64,000 nucleotides of DNA from Cloacibacterium caeni (GTDB lineage Bacteria; Bacteroidota; Bacteroidia; Flavobacteriales; Weeksellaceae): the NCBI RefSeq assembly GCF_907163125.1, contig NZ_OU015319.1:1798001-1862000 (forward strand). Reading direction: 5' to 3'. The notes beneath the pieces were generated by a model. The model did no database searches and was not told the DNA's origin. It worked only from the letters and a program-made list of their open reading frames with translations. Shown piece by piece: positions 40,695 to 60,583 of the stretch (position 1 is the first letter of the stretch; each line of letters begins with the position of its first letter). A program made the translations under genes and the position numbers.

Positions 40695-41612
40695 ATGATT
40701 AAAGTAGAAAACATATCAAAGTCTTACGGCGAAAAAAATCAGAAAATTCTGGCAGTAGATAACATTTCCTTTTCGGTAGAAAATGGAGAAATTTTCGGGT
40801 TGATTGGTCCTGATGGAAGTGGCAAAACCTCTATTTTCCGAATGTTAACTACTCTTCTACATCCAGATTCTGGTTCTGCAGAAATTGAAGGACTTGATGT
40901 GGTTAAAGACTACAAAAAAATCCGACAGATTCTTGGTTATATGCCAGGAAAATTTTCTCTGTATCAAGATTTAACTGTAGAAGAAAATCTAGAATTTTTC
41001 GCTAGTGTGTTCAATACAAGTATTCAAGAAAATTACGATTTAATCAAAGATATTTATCAGCAGATTGAACCATTTAAAGACCGAAAAGCAGGGAAACTTT
41101 CTGGCGGAATGAAACAGAAATTAGCGCTTTCTTGTGCTCTGATTCACAAGCCAAAAGTTTTATTTCTAGATGAACCTACAACAGGAGTTGACCCAGTTTC
41201 GAGAAAAGAATTTTGGGAGATGCTGAAACGCTTAAAACAACAAGGCATCACCATCGTGGTAGCAACTCCTTACATGGATGAAGCCACACTCTGTGACAGA
41301 GTTGCTCTCATGCAAAACGGGAAAATTTTAAAAATTGACACTCCTCAAAACATTTGCAATAGCTTCCCTGAAGATTTATACGAAGTAAAAACCGAAAATA
41401 TTCCTGCTCTCATCAAAATCCTCAAAGAATACGAAACCACTAAAAATACATATGCCTTTGGCGAATTTGTACATGTGGTGATTAAAAAAGAAAAAGATTT
41501 TAAAAAGGAAACTCTTGAGAAATTTTTACAAGAAAAAAGATTTAACAAAATTGAAATCAACAAAATAGAAGCTACCATAGAAGATAGTTTTATATTACTA
41601 TTATCACAATAA
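40695..41612 (+). CDS. ABC transporter ATPase, first of two
   Basis: This 305-aa ATPase has a variant Walker A GPDGSGKTS, signature LSGGMKQKLALS, Walker B LFLDEPTTGVDP and a C-terminal extension (about 220-305) typical of ABC-2 drug exporters. In Bacteroidetes this and the next gene encode the two halves of a YbhF-like ATPase. The H-loop position reads ATPYMDE, without the usual histidine, suggesting a degenerate site. An 401-bp inserted element separates it from the second ATPase gene. Confidence 0.9.
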   Translation: MIKVENISKSYGEKNQKILAVDNISFSVENGEIFGLIGPDGSGKTSIFRMLTTLLHPDSGSAEIEGLDVVKDYKKIRQILGYMPGKFSLYQDLTVEENLEFFASVFNTSIQENYDLIKDIYQQIEPFKDRKAGKLSGGMKQKLALSCALIHKPKVLFLDEPTTGVDPVSRKEFWEMLKRLKQQGITIVVATPYMDEATLCDRVALMQNGKILKIDTPQNICNSFPEDLYEVKTENIPALIKILKEYETTKNTYAFGEFVHVVIKKEKDFKKETLEKFLQEKRFNKIEINKIEATIEDSFILLLSQ

Positions 41613-41621
41613 ATTGCTGTA

Positions 41622-42022
41622 TGTCATTCTGAACGAAATGAGGAACGAATGAAGTGAAGAATCTGTTAAATGAAATAAATGAAAACTTTATGAACACATA
41701 ATTATTATGTTTATATACTTACAAATCTTAATAAAACCGTTTTATACATCGGTTTTACAAATGATTTGAAAGCAAGATTGTATTGGCATCAAAATCCCGA
41801 TGCTATGATTAAACATTTTACTTCAAAATACAAATGTTTCTTTTTAGTTTATTATGAACATTTTCAAGATGTTGAAATTGCAATAGCAAGAGAAAAACAA
41901 CTCAAAGGTTGGACAAGATTAAAAAAAGAAAATTTGATAAAAGACTTTAATCCTGATTGGAAATTTTTAAATAAAGAAATAGAATAGATTCTTCATTACG
42001 CTACGCTCCATTCAGAATGACA
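41622..42022. mobile_element. Palindrome-bounded element carrying a GIY-YIG frame
   Basis: The element begins TGTCATTCTGAACG and ends with the complementary ATTCAGAATGACA; inner arm ends are GAAGAATCT and AGATTCTTC. Arms are 43 nt (41622-41664) and 37 nt (41986-42022). Between them lies one reading frame with a GIY-YIG nuclease domain. An 85-bp version with the same arms but no gene is at 42822-42906. No target duplication is clear. It is probably a small mobile or homing element inserted between two genes of an operon. Confidence 0.7.
41694..41987 (+). pseudogene. GIY-YIG nuclease domain frame, start codon lost
   Basis: The frame is open from 41694 and reads THNYYVYILTNLNKTVLYIG, the GIY-YIG motif as YVY...LYIG, then FTNDLKARLYWHQN with the catalytic arginine, and IAREKQLKGWTRLKKENLI with the catalytic glutamate region. 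Small nucleases of this type start MN..YYVYILTN. Here an ATG at 41690 is in the wrong frame: two bases in an ACAC run appear to be missing. The only in-frame start, TTG 41766, would cut off the motif. The stop codon TAG overlaps the first base pair of the right arm. A two-base deletion, an unusual start codon, or an assembly error are possible. Confidence 0.7.
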
Positions 42023-42024
42023 AA

Positions 42025-42786
42025 ATGAACTCTCAAATCATGAATAAAGAAATCGCCATACAAGCCGAACAAATCACCAAAACATTTGGAGATTTCACTG
42101 CGGTAGACCATATTTCCTTTGAAGTAAAAAAAGGAGAGATTTTCGGATTTCTAGGTGCAAATGGAGCGGGAAAAACCACTGCAATGCGGATGTTTTGTGG
42201 ACTTTCCACACCCACTTCTGGTAAAGCGATGGTTGCTGGATTTGATGTCTACAAAAACACTGAAGAAATCAAAAAAAATATTGGATACATGAGTCAAAAG
42301 TTTTCTTTGTATGAAAATTTATCCATTTTAGAAAATTTAGAATTCTTTGGCGGAATCTATGGATTAAGCATGAAGGAAATCAAACAAAAAAGCAAAGAAC
42401 TCATTGAGAAATTAGGTTTAGAACAAGAAAAAAACAAAATGGTATCCGAACTTCCGCTGGGTTGGAAACAGAAACTGGCTTTTTCAGTCGCTATTTTTCA
42501 TCAGCCAGAAATTGTTTTTCTAGACGAACCAACTGGTGGTGTAGACCCTATTACCAGAAGACAATTTTGGGACTTAATTTATGATGCTTCAGAACAAGGA
42601 ATTACCATTTTTGTCACTACGCATTATATGGACGAAGCCGAATATTGCAACCGAGTTTCCATCATGGTTGACGGAAAAATTGCAGCAATTGACTCTCCTG
42701 AAAATTTGAAAAAAAGTTTTCAAGCCAGAACAATGGACGAAGTATTTTATCAATTAGCCAGAGGCGCAAAAAGAAGTGCTGATTAA
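42025..42786 (+). CDS. ABC transporter ATPase, second of two
   Basis: This 253-aa ATPase has Walker A GANGAGKTT, signature LPLGWKQKLAFS (a degenerate form of LSGGQ), Walker B VFLDEPTGGVDP and the switch histidine TTHYMDEAE. It pairs with the preceding ATPase and the two following permeases. The first ATG lies only 2 nt after the inserted element's right end; a second ATG at 42040 (MNKEIAIQAEQITK) also fits the family. The element may thus contribute the 5' context of this cistron. Confidence 0.9.
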   Translation: MNSQIMNKEIAIQAEQITKTFGDFTAVDHISFEVKKGEIFGFLGANGAGKTTAMRMFCGLSTPTSGKAMVAGFDVYKNTEEIKKNIGYMSQKFSLYENLSILENLEFFGGIYGLSMKEIKQKSKELIEKLGLEQEKNKMVSELPLGWKQKLAFSVAIFHQPEIVFLDEPTGGVDPITRRQFWDLIYDASEQGITIFVTTHYMDEAEYCNRVSIMVDGKIAAIDSPENLKKSFQARTMDEVFYQLARGAKRSAD

Positions 42787-42821
42787 TGAAGAATTAAAAA
42801 TTAATAAATAAAATAAACACT

Positions 42822-42906
42822 TGTCATTCTGAACGTAATGTAATGAAGTGAAGAATCTGTTTAAATAAGAGATTCTTCATTACGCTTCGCTTCATTCAGA
42901 ATGACA
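42822..42906. mobile_element. Short (85 bp) copy of the palindromic element, no gene
   Basis: The arms are 42822-42858 and 42870-42906, 37 nt each, with identical outer 12 nt (TGTCATTCTGAA) and inner 10 nt (TGAAGAATCT); the middle is a GAA/GAAG-rich variable part. An 11-nt loop remains. It is a MITE-like derivative of the element at 41622, placed between the ATPase and the permease gene. Confidence 0.75.
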
Positions 42907-42915
42907 AAATAAAAA

Positions 42916-44022
42916 ATGAAACAGTTATTCCCTTTTATACGAAAAGAATTTTATCACCTTCTGCGTGATCGAAGAACTTTGCTCATACTTCTCGCAATGC
43001 CAATTATACAAGTATTGCTGTTCGGTTTTGCACTTTCTACGGAGATTAAAAACACCAAAGCAGCTGTTTTTGACCAAGATAAAAGCATCATCTCAGCACA
43101 ATTGGTTTCTAAAATTCATGAAAATCAATATTTTGACATTGAAAAAAATCTGACTTCTAACAAAGACTTTGAAAACGCTTTTAAAGACGGAAAAACAAAG
43201 CTACTCCTCGTCATTCCTTCTGATTTCTCAGAAAATTTAACGCAAGGGAAAAAAGCAAAATTGCAGATTTTAGTTGACGGAACAGATGTAAACCTAGGAA
43301 ACCAAATCGCCAATTATTTCCAAAATATTGTCCTAGACTTTTATCAAAATCAACAAAAAGAAACGTTGCAAACGTTTTCTGTTTCTCCAGAAATTAGAAT
43401 GCTCTATAATCCTCAACTTAAAGGAGCGCCTAATTTCGTTCCGGGAGTTGTTGCACTCGTTTTATTGATTGTTTGCGTAATGATGACTGCAATTGCCATC
43501 GTAAAAGAAAAAGAAACTGGAACGATGGAAATCCTATTGGTTTCGCCTATGAAACCCCAATTTATTATTATTTCTAAGGCAATTCCTTACTTTATTTTGG
43601 CGATGGGAATTCTTGGAGTAATTCTACTTTTAAGTTATTTTTTACTGGATTTACCCATAAAAGGAAGCATTATTTTGCTATTCTTTGTGAGTACTATTTT
43701 CATCATCACCAATTTACTTATCGGGATTTTAATTTCTATTTTTTCAAAAACTCAACAACAAGCTATGCTTTTTTCGATGATGGGAACTATGCTTCCCACA
43801 CTCATGTTGAGCGGATTTATGTTTCCTATCGAAAATATGCCCATTCCACTACAAGTGATGTCTAATATTATACCTGCAAAATGGTATTATATCATGATTA
43901 AAAATATTATGATCAAAGGAACAGGACTCGCCGTAATCTGGAAATCCCTTTTAATTTTAACAGGAATGATGATGGTTCTTTTCACGATTGCTGTGAAAAA
44001 ATTTAAAATAAGGTTAGAATGA
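42916..44022 (+). CDS. ABC-2 type permease, first of two
   Basis: This 368-aa membrane protein has an N-terminal helix (about residues 20-40), a large extracytoplasmic domain (about 45-170), and five C-terminal helices (170-365) with AIAIVKEKETGTMEILLVSPMKP, the conserved ABC-2 coupling segment. It is YbhS/YbhR-like and would export organic compounds across the inner membrane with its paralogue. The gene starts 9 nt after the short palindromic element. Confidence 0.88.
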   Translation: MKQLFPFIRKEFYHLLRDRRTLLILLAMPIIQVLLFGFALSTEIKNTKAAVFDQDKSIISAQLVSKIHENQYFDIEKNLTSNKDFENAFKDGKTKLLLVIPSDFSENLTQGKKAKLQILVDGTDVNLGNQIANYFQNIVLDFYQNQQKETLQTFSVSPEIRMLYNPQLKGAPNFVPGVVALVLLIVCVMMTAIAIVKEKETGTMEILLVSPMKPQFIIISKAIPYFILAMGILGVILLLSYFLLDLPIKGSIILLFFVSTIFIITNLLIGILISIFSKTQQQAMLFSMMGTMLPTLMLSGFMFPIENMPIPLQVMSNIIPAKWYYIMIKNIMIKGTGLAVIWKSLLILTGMMMVLFTIAVKKFKIRLE

Positions 44023-44053
44023 TGATTCACATGCATCGCAAAATTGAAAAATT

Positions 44054-45175
44054 ATGAAACAGCTACTCTTCTTACTTCGTAAAGAATTCCGACAAATTTT
44101 TCGGAACAAATCTATATTGGCCATTATTTTTGTTGCGCCGATGATGCAGCTCATTATCTTGCCTTTAGCTGCAAGTTATGAGATAAAAAACATCAATCTA
44201 TCTGTAGTAGACCATAACCACTCTAGTTTTTCAAGGGAATTAATTCAAAAAATTACCGCAAGTAACTATTTCAAATTACAATATTACGGCGAAGACTACC
44301 AAAAAGCTTTTGAAACCATAGAAAGCGAAAAATCAGATATTATTCTAGAAATTCCACCAAAATTTGAACAAAATTTAGTGAGGGAAAATCAACAAAAAGT
44401 ATTGGTTGCTATTAATGCAATAAACGGCACTAAAGCGGGTTTGGGAGGAAGTTATCTAGCACAAATTTTACAAGATTATAACCAAAATATCCAAACGAAA
44501 CTCTCCCCACAATTGGTAGAATTTCAAAAAAATGCAGGTCTAGAAGTTAATGCTACCCTTTGGTTCAATAGATTTTACAACTACAGATTGGCTCTGGTTC
44601 CAGGTATTTTGGCATTTCTTGTGACGCTAGTTGGCGGAATGCTTTCTGCGCTAAACATTGTCTCTGAGAAAGAAATTGGCACAATTGAACAAATTAATGT
44701 TTCGCCCATCAAAAAATCTACTTTCATCCTAGGGAAACTTATTCCCTTTTGGATTTTGGCAAATGTAGCTTTTACCATGGGACTTTTGGTTTCCAGATTT
44801 GTCTATGGAATAGAAATTTATGGGAGTTTACCACTACTTTATTTCTTTGTGGGAGTTTATCTTTTAGCCATTTTAGGATTCGGCTTATTGATTTCCACCT
44901 ATAGTGAAACGCAGCAACAGGCGATGTTTACCATATTTTTCTTCATGATGATTTTTATAATGATGAGCGGTTTATACACGCCCATTGAAAGCATGCCAGA
45001 ATGGTCTCAAAAACTGACGCTTCTTAATCCGCTTACGTATTTAATAGAAGTGATTCGATTAATTATGCTCAAAAATTCTGGATTCAAAGATTTAATTCCA
45101 CAGTTTATCTCCATTTTAGGAATGGCCGTTTTCTTTAACTCTTGGGCAGTTTGGAATTACAGAAAGACGTCATAA
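44054..45175 (+). CDS. ABC-2 type permease, second of two
   Basis: This 373-aa paralogue has the same layout: one N-terminal helix (about 20-40), an extracytoplasmic domain (about 45-170), then five helices with ALNIVSEKEIGTIEQINVSPIKKSTFILGK as the coupling segment. It forms the export channel with the previous permease. It ends the efflux operon. No strong terminator hairpin was found after it. Confidence 0.88.
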   Translation: MKQLLFLLRKEFRQIFRNKSILAIIFVAPMMQLIILPLAASYEIKNINLSVVDHNHSSFSRELIQKITASNYFKLQYYGEDYQKAFETIESEKSDIILEIPPKFEQNLVRENQQKVLVAINAINGTKAGLGGSYLAQILQDYNQNIQTKLSPQLVEFQKNAGLEVNATLWFNRFYNYRLALVPGILAFLVTLVGGMLSALNIVSEKEIGTIEQINVSPIKKSTFILGKLIPFWILANVAFTMGLLVSRFVYGIEIYGSLPLLYFFVGVYLLAILGFGLLISTYSETQQQAMFTIFFFMMIFIMMSGLYTPIESMPEWSQKLTLLNPLTYLIEVIRLIMLKNSGFKDLIPQFISILGMAVFFNSWAVWNYRKTS

Positions 45176-59750: not shown

Positions 59751-60583
59751 TTAAATGATATGATAGTAAACCAACATTTTATAGTACAACTTAGCTGCTA
59801 AAAACGCAGTAGGTTTCACGTAAGGAGAATCCATTGATTCTACAATGTCAAAAGCAACAACATTACATTTTTCAAATACTTTTTTCAATAATTCTAAAGT
59901 TGGATACCATTTGGAGTTCCTGTACTTGGCGCAAAACTCGGATCAAAAGCATCTAAATCTATTGTTATATAAACATTTCCTGAAACTATTGCCAAAACAT
60001 CATCTATCCAATTAGGATTTGTGGCAATTTCGTGAGCGCAAAAACATTGACCTTTTGGAACGTATTGCATTTCTTCTAAATCGCAAGAACGAATCCCAAC
60101 TTGTACCAAATTTAATTTCTGACTTGCTTCAAAAACTGCACAAGCATGATTTGAAGTAGAACCGTGAAAATCTGGACGCAAATCTGTATGCGCATCAAAC
60201 TGAAGTACCGTTAAATCTGGATATTTTTCTCCTACTGCTCTTATAGAGCCAATAGAAACAGAATGTTCTCCGTCAAAAAGTGTAAACAATTTCCATTCAT
60301 TTTTCAACATTTCTTTGGTTTTTTGATAAACTGCTTCTGTCATTGCTTCAGATGTAGAATTTTCTGAAACTTCTCATGCAATCCAAACTCCTTCTAAATA
60401 AGGTTCTGTTCCGGTTTCTATATCGTACAATTCCATATTTTCTGAAGCGTCCAAAAACAATTCCGGGCCTTTATCTGCACCTTTTCCCCAAGTTGAAGTT
60501 CCATCTTAAGGAACAGTAACCAACATTACTTTAGATGTTTCTAACTGTGCATTCTCTTCTGGAATTCATGGGTATGTATTCAT
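59751..60583 (-). pseudogene. Agmatinase/arginase-family pseudogene
   Basis: Starting at ATG 60583, the reading frame encodes a recognisable ureohydrolase, broken by three in-frame stops: TGA at 60566-60568, TAA at 60506-60508 and TGA at 60374-60376. The middle part is intact (FDGEHSVSIGS, DAHTDLR, ITIDLDAFDPSFAPSTGTP), with metal-binding aspartates and histidines. A short deletion after STGTP then removes the usual EPGG segment and shifts the frame; the C-terminus (WYPTLELLKKVFEKC, VAFDIVESMDSPYVKPT) continues in another frame to a stop at 59751. Several separate lesions argue for a decayed gene, not a single sequencing error. It would have made putrescine from agmatine, next to speA. Confidence 0.85.

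Follow-up and report, generated by a model that had tools for sequence, protein, structure and literature searches.

The subject of this analysis is an element in a 64,000-nucleotide stretch of Cloacibacterium caeni DNA (the window; contig NZ_OU015319.1, positions 1,798,001 to 1,862,000), in which two inverted palindromic arms enclose a reading frame for a small GIY-YIG nuclease within an ATP-binding cassette (ABC) transporter operon. The arms resemble repetitive extragenic palindromes (REPs), and the element probably belongs to a REP-type mobile system that consists of small GIY-YIG genes bounded by arms whose foot is TGTC or CGTC and of gene-less inverted arm pairs genome-wide. Small GIY-YIG genes are associated with such arms, the arms are constrained to a hairpin form and co-vary, and related units are present or absent at orthologous sites. 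The small GIY-YIG nucleases are a strong candidate for the machinery that spreads CGTC/TGTC REP-like arms.

A survey of REPs (Di Nocera et al., 2013; PMC3733652) describes a super-family with a CGTC, often TGTC, foot, stems starting with AT and a mostly inverted-dimer arrangement, which covers dRS3 of Neisseria and RPE-4 and RPE-6 of Rickettsia; according to the survey, these CGTC REPs "apparently lack a dedicated transposase". Because the arms considered here are like CGTC REPs and flank GIY-YIG genes, GIY-YIG nucleases are proposed as the missing partner. A wider form of the proposal, favoured somewhat less firmly, holds that they are the dedicated enzymes of CGTC/TGTC REPs in several phyla, including dRS3 of Neisseria, and that they are hairpin-guided, evolved separately from the HUH-type REP-associated tyrosine transposases (RAYTs), and act by hydrolytic cutting with host repair.

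Association of arms with small GIY-YIG genes in Bacteroidota

Homologues were sought in 40 relatives, 17 of which gave a match, and in 296 genomes of the phylum, 189 of which did. Loci taken from the latter survey, among the matches listed, comprise 30 loci, the first place of 58 more genomes, and 40 further places; G112 and G162 each have two places of equal score among the matches listed. Named genomes contribute the best 80 of 167 confirmed loci (Chryseobacterium, Flavobacterium and allies). Each named locus is taken as one genome, so that Chryseobacterium tagetis (L198, L236) is counted twice, and a named locus may share its genome with an unnamed handle. From the first-flank sample onward, duplicates (L095, L088), a locus overlapping L070 (L081) and weak matches (L071, L080, L072) are excluded; merging of identical copies reduces 195 hits to 190 genes.

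Arms defined strictly (GTCA, a perfect 5-bp stem, a loop starting with G, and C after the stem) lie on both flanks of 91 of 226 small GIY-YIG genes and of none of 683 control open reading frames (ORFs). A strict arm is present on one side only of 65 GIY-YIG genes and 36 controls, and on at least one side of 156 and 36, respectively; contrary to an outcome that the original prediction had itself weighed, these genes are thus not found as often without arms as with them. The gene count leaves out six of 232 genes for short flanks, and the controls are ORFs chosen mechanically, each a minimum of 700 nt away from the GIY-YIG gene and drawn from loci 5 kb or longer. Other measures agree in direction: inverted flank similarity of at least 20 is found for 59 of 113 GIY-YIG genes, compared with 19 of 426 neighbouring ORFs and, in the size range 70-160 aa, 4 of 140; TGTCATT upstream with its complement downstream is found at 59 of 190 genes and in none of 340 shifted windows (the reverse order occurs at 27 of 190, a count without control); and a looser scan of the 190 genes finds arms on both sides of 97 and on one side of 56, against 0 and 3 for shuffled flanks.

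These comparisons bear on whether the arms serve the host as regulatory or terminator hairpins, with GIY-YIG genes merely settling in repeat-rich intergenic spaces. That reading is highly unlikely, since strict arms on both sides are found at none of the 188 control ORFs that lie in these loci and encode 70-160 aa, and since the arms follow small GIY-YIG genes rather than long ones: loci found in 16 genomes with the Pfam GIY-YIG model have arms at 3 of 6 small genes (two of the three already in the main sample) and at 0 of 23 long genes, 14 of which run off the locus and are seen upstream only (29 loci in all, L334 left out). The left and right arms of one gene also match beyond chance: their stems agree in 60 of 117 genes, where permutation gives a mean of 16.7 and a maximum of 29, and, within seven genomes that have more than one stem type, in 8 of 18 against 4.2 (P 0.02).

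In the REP-type system proposed here, arm type tracks protein. In 98 of 191 cases a gene shares its stem with the gene of the closest protein from a differently labelled genome (permuted mean 21, maximum 39), and within genomes the nine same-stem protein pairs are 81% identical, as against 50% for the 41 different-stem pairs (P 0.004). Upstream, 21 of 111 comparisons show homology between copies ending at -1 to +6 nt relative to the arm edge (permuted mean 3.6); downstream, 12 of 109 do (permuted mean 2.5).

Arm number and the cognate nuclease

Four arm types were counted in 66 genomes with typed arms at an inspected GIY-YIG gene and in 14 genomes without a family match. ATTTC arms have a median of 36 in genomes with the cognate nuclease and of 1 in other GIY-YIG genomes (P 6e-9); the corresponding medians are 24.5 and 3.5 for ATTCT (P 2e-6) and 9 and 1 for ATTGC (P 5e-4). 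When four arms are subtracted for the element itself, ATTTC and ATTCT alone are significant. The cognate type is the commonest of the four in 36 of 53 one-type genomes (permuted mean 13.2, maximum 26), and in 24 of 53 after the four-arm subtraction.

Hairpin form of the arms

In a set of 27 different arms whose loops are three bases long, 94.1% of stem cells are paired, and the stem covariation score of 0.541 (0.198 for shuffled stems) is reached by none of 500 shuffles. Because the foot, the first stem pair and the loop's G and A were prescribed by the pattern that drew this set, they are not evidence there. Three-base loops are GNA in 106 of 107 cases and four-base loops GNNA in 16 of 16, in a scan that prefers, without requiring, a G at the loop start and leaves the loop end free, and in which many arms are related. 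The arm scans are seeded with GTC, so that the preceding base is the informative one; it is T in 257, C in 40, A in 14 and G in 6 of 317 arms. In a scan that requires A as the first stem base, most stems begin with AT or AC.

Loops of the GNA and GNNA types are of unusual stability in single-stranded DNA, and the GNRA type usual in RNA does not cover tetraloops such as GTCA; the loops therefore point to single-stranded DNA as the recognised form of the arms. The tetraloops also stand against an origin of the arms as host regulatory hairpins.

The element and the arms in the Cloacibacterium caeni genome

Two arm-bounded segments were noted in the first inspection of the window, and both are present, 401 bp at 41622-42022 and 85 bp at 42822-42906. 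The features are as follows, the arms and the start of the frame being read from the sequence.

41622-42022, + strand: whole arm-bounded element of 401 bp (site 1), between two ABC ATPase genes
41622-41664, + strand: left REP-like arm, with TGTC foot, stem ATTCT/AGAAT, loop and CT tail
41679-41693, + strand: start of the GIY-YIG reading frame, closed by an in-frame stop codon
41694-41987, + strand: rest of the GIY-YIG frame, 97 aa (Pfam PF01541)
41986-42022, - strand: right REP-like arm, inverted
42822-42906, no strand assigned: 85-bp gene-less inverted arm pair, a REPIN-like dimer (site 2; a REPIN is a pair of inverted REPs), one gene downstream of the 401-bp element
44022-44054, no strand assigned: site 3, between two permease genes; without arms in the window genome, the orthologous place occupied in two congeners (G005, G006)

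The frame enclosed by the 401-bp element is a GIY-YIG domain (PF01541, E 5.4e-16), as had been proposed from its translation. It has an in-frame stop at 41691-41693, after codon 4, and its next in-frame ATG, GTG or TTG is a TTG at 41766, beyond the Y...Y motif; for these reasons the frame is probably a pseudogene. It is the single family member found in the window genome (one match at E <= 0.01 with a protein query and one at E <= 1e-8 with a profile), and since it is broken in this strain, this nuclease copy has probably ceased to spread the dimers there. A homologue from another genus, L057, is intact.

Arms are numerous in the window genome. The word TGTCATTCTGAA has 46 exact copies and its reversed control 0; the full ATTCT-type hairpin pattern occurs 49 times, against 0 for the control and 4, 2 and 0 for the three other stem types. 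Full-length matches to the 85-nt dimer are found at ten places, the window copy included, and gene-less pairs occur also in G208, with arms about 75 nt apart. In a folding test of seven sequences, one of which (an L059 stretch) is not an arm, the 85-nt dimer folds far better than its shuffles (z -8.1), and the gain is modest for a typed triloop arm (z -2.9) and a typed tetraloop arm (z -2.2). Neither single arm of the window element (z -0.12 and 0.35) folds better than shuffles, nor does a typed ATTGC arm (z 0.25). A chance origin of the arms is excluded by the word and hairpin controls, the folding of the dimer and the control-ORF counts, and nothing reaches Rfam gathering thresholds within 41000-43600 that would assign the arm region to a known RNA family.

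Near 1.58 Mb of the same genome (L271, G000:C1:1580000-1593500), repeats of about 290-360 bp, in tandem or nearly so, contain one arm apiece in a constant orientation; the arrangement looks like that of a longer repeat that took up an arm before being duplicated. Single arms with similar spacing appear, from the hit list only, near 455, 780 and 1352 kb.

Presence and absence at orthologous sites

Seven genomes of the genus with this operon were compared, the window genome (G000) and six congeners (G001 to G006). Site 1 is occupied in G000 and is without the element in the six congeners: in G002, G003 and G005 the two ATPase genes overlap (by eye), and in G001, G004 and G006 there is other sequence; none of the six has a gene-less dimer at this site. 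Site 2 is occupied in four of the seven (G000, G003, G005 and G006); G002 has no dimer there, and G001 and G004 have other sequence instead. At site 3, G005 and G006 contain a GIY-YIG element that is truncated and whose arms match the window type, and the three genomes compared without the element (G000, G002, G003) have no arms. Related units thus occupy different places in sister species.

The original prediction had taken the two window copies for a parent element and its miniature inverted-repeat transposable element (MITE), and this part of it does not stand, since site 2 is filled in four of seven genomes and site 1 in one of seven. Three congeners hold the 85-bp copy alone, with no 401-bp neighbour, and the 85-bp copy is therefore not derived from that neighbour; the same distribution rejects it as a deletion product of the adjacent element.

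In five regions of the genus of 60-72 kb, taken as colinear, the arm sites found are confined to about 2.5 kb of this ABC transporter operon (41622-44054); a low-complexity AAAAA match at window position 60272 is excluded from the arm sites.

The nuclease family

The GIY-YIG family is under purifying selection, with a median ratio of nonsynonymous to synonymous substitution rates (dN/dS) of 0.31 over 3,628 pairs and 0.34 over 89 independent pairs, both sets without frames that contain stops. The catalytic-type residues Y, Y, R, H and E are kept in nearly all of about 217 family sequences. A protein model of L057 has a mean predicted local distance difference test (pLDDT) score of 89.8, and its best fold match is the UPF0213 protein 1zg2. 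Sequence searches find two solved structures, both UPF0213 GIY-YIG proteins (1zg2 and 1ywl), whose molecule names give no mobile role. The next-best fold match, a weak one (E 0.045), is the structure-specific nuclease Slx1, a eukaryotic repair enzyme partnered with Slx4.

Relation to known REP systems

The arms are like those of the CGTC REP super-family in their terminal CGTC or TGTC foot (TGTC in the window), in AT as the first stem bases (the first pair being fixed by the drawing pattern in the covariation set), in a short unpaired tail starting with C, in their mostly inverted-dimer arrangement and in their spread over several phyla. The arms of Neisseria, Azospirillum, Rhizobium and Shinella, all Pseudomonadota, have by eye the geometry given in the survey, an 8-bp stem with a 4-nt loop or a 9-bp stem with a 5-nt loop. 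In Bacteroidota that geometry is not found; unlike the published repeats, many arms there have 5-bp stems with loops of 3-4 nt, those of GNA type among them, or 5-bp outer stems with longer imperfect loops. Because stem and loop lengths differ, the window arms are relatives, not members, of the four published CGTC REP families. Palindromes of this sort have been described before, as they closely resemble the CGTC/TGTC REPs of that survey (PMC3733652). A further difference is the enzyme: the survey gives no dedicated one for the super-family, whereas here the arms flank a small GIY-YIG gene.

Likeness to REP/RAYT systems (REPtrons and REPINs) lies in the arrangement, a small nuclease gene between REP hairpins with a fixed foot, accompanied by many gene-less inverted dimers elsewhere in the genome, such as those at ten places in the window genome and the pairs in G208. 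The enzyme and foot are different: RAYTs are HUH tyrosine enzymes with a GTAG foot, whereas here the flanked gene encodes the GIY-YIG fold of PF01541 and the foot is TGTC. The earlier suggestion that a GIY-YIG enzyme serves a system of the REP/RAYT kind has strong support as an association in genomes, extending far outside the window; of the original interpretation, the REP/RAYT analogy is supported at that level and the parent-to-MITE relation is not. Among the papers listed in literature searches, none links GIY-YIG to REPs by its title or the start of its abstract, with most subscription journals and bioRxiv outside the coverage.

The association of GTAG-foot REPs with RAYTs (PMC3733652) lends some weight to the idea that a tyrosine (RAYT-type) or other transposase moves the arms, the GIY-YIG nuclease being an accessory or a domesticated restraint, and so does the finding that close GIY-YIG relatives mostly keep homologous flanks (see below). 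It is nevertheless a very improbable explanation, given that the survey sought transposase genes flanked by CGTC REPs and reports only few fortuitous associations (PMC3733652), and that the flanked gene here is a GIY-YIG gene (no search for RAYT genes was made in these genomes). The string "GIY" is absent from the main text of the survey.

Arms and nucleases beyond Bacteroidota

By tblastn, 33 records of a plasmid collection match the L062 protein; the L354 protein matches 34 there, and the two sets are almost identical. No relatives of the L062 protein were found in a phage collection or in viral contigs. Fourteen plasmid-collection loci, one of them from Bacteroidota, were inspected with their flanks and without a control set, and nine have arms on both sides. 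Seven of these have the same stem on both sides: two from Shinella and one each from Neorhizobium, Rhizobium CIAT894, Azospirillum, Sphingobium and Neisseria gonorrhoeae (the last a chromosome-sized record filed as a plasmid). In Aeromonas caviae (by one pair) and Planktothrix the two stems differ. The Neisseria and Planktothrix loci lie inside clusters of such repeats. Novosphingobium has, by eye, a matching arm pair missed by the script, Spirosoma an arm on one side, and Photobacterium none; Sinorhizobium and Rhizobium tumorigenes have one hairpin each of another kind, not counted as arms. The pairing of arm and nuclease thus recurs in Pseudomonadota, including Neisseria, and in one cyanobacterium.

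At one locus of Sinorhizobium sp. K101 (L349), the GIY-YIG gene is without CGTC-type arms, and a longer repeat of another kind seems, by eye, to flank it.

Proposed mechanism and its alternatives

The nuclease would recognise the arm as a single-stranded hairpin, the likely place being the lagging-strand template, and would cut at the TGTC foot; the released or copied arm pair would then be placed elsewhere with the help of host repair, and the arms would so be spread. Host repair is invoked because GIY-YIG enzymes are not known to form a covalent strand-transfer intermediate.

Several observations weigh against this reading. Of 226 GIY-YIG genes, 70 are without any strict arm. In the covariation set, changes on both sides occur at four of five stem pairs, a weak measure that 12 of 500 shuffles reach, and further pair types are not above shuffles (483 of 500 reach the observed value). 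The shared-stem signal fades with distance, protein pairs below 60% identity lying within the permutation range. In most comparisons homology ends away from the arm edge, often inside the unit, and of 54 gene pairs at least 90% identical, 35 have homologous flanks on both sides, 17 on one side and 2 on neither, a count that leaves out short-flank loci, i.e., the multi-copy ones. Because close pairs mostly keep homologous flanks, the nuclease gene is mostly inherited in place. At site 1 the junctions (41600-41621 and 42023-42040) are unclean: the end of ATPase 1 is recoded, its last codons differing from those of congeners with residues nearly unchanged (by eye), which suggests that the element may have arrived via recombination from a diverged relative. 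No target-site duplication is visible at sites 1 and 2, where junctions have diverged.

Arm numbers add to these points. ATTCC arms have a median of 7.5 in cognate and 4.5 in other genomes, which is not significant (P 0.08), and after the four-arm subtraction neither ATTCC (P 0.72) nor ATTGC (P 0.13) is significant. The main exception is G041, which has 421 ATTGC arms and whose only GIY-YIG genes by the Pfam model encode proteins of 609 aa (UvrC-size) and 460 aa. Three genomes without a family match, G315, G240 and G295, have 47, 26 and 17 arms of the four types; G295 has a 124-aa GIY-YIG gene without arms. In G041 the driver of the arms may have been lost or may be foreign.

The abundance of arms in G041 without a small GIY-YIG gene, together with the two arm types that lack clear cognate enrichment, would be in keeping with a homing-type endonuclease gene that stands on its own and enters arm pairs already present, by cutting and repair copying, the arms being spread otherwise. 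GIY-YIG is a classical homing nuclease fold, and the family matches group I intron endonucleases, though far below the cut-off. This alternative is nonetheless unlikely, if less so than the two considered above: site 1 in the six other genomes of the genus offers no gene-less dimer to invade, site 3 has no arms in the three element-free genomes compared, and arm type tracks protein among close relatives, though a unit inherited whole would show this too.

Significance

The 2013 survey did not settle which enzyme, if any, spreads the CGTC half of the repeats (PMC3733652). With GIY-YIG nucleases as the proposed partner, a small, widespread and named nuclease family stands beside co-varying target hairpins, which makes the enzyme question testable in vitro. 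If the proposal is true, unrelated nuclease folds would have given rise to REP systems on at least two occasions, and a function would be found for a family that most annotations label no more precisely than "GIY-YIG nuclease family protein".
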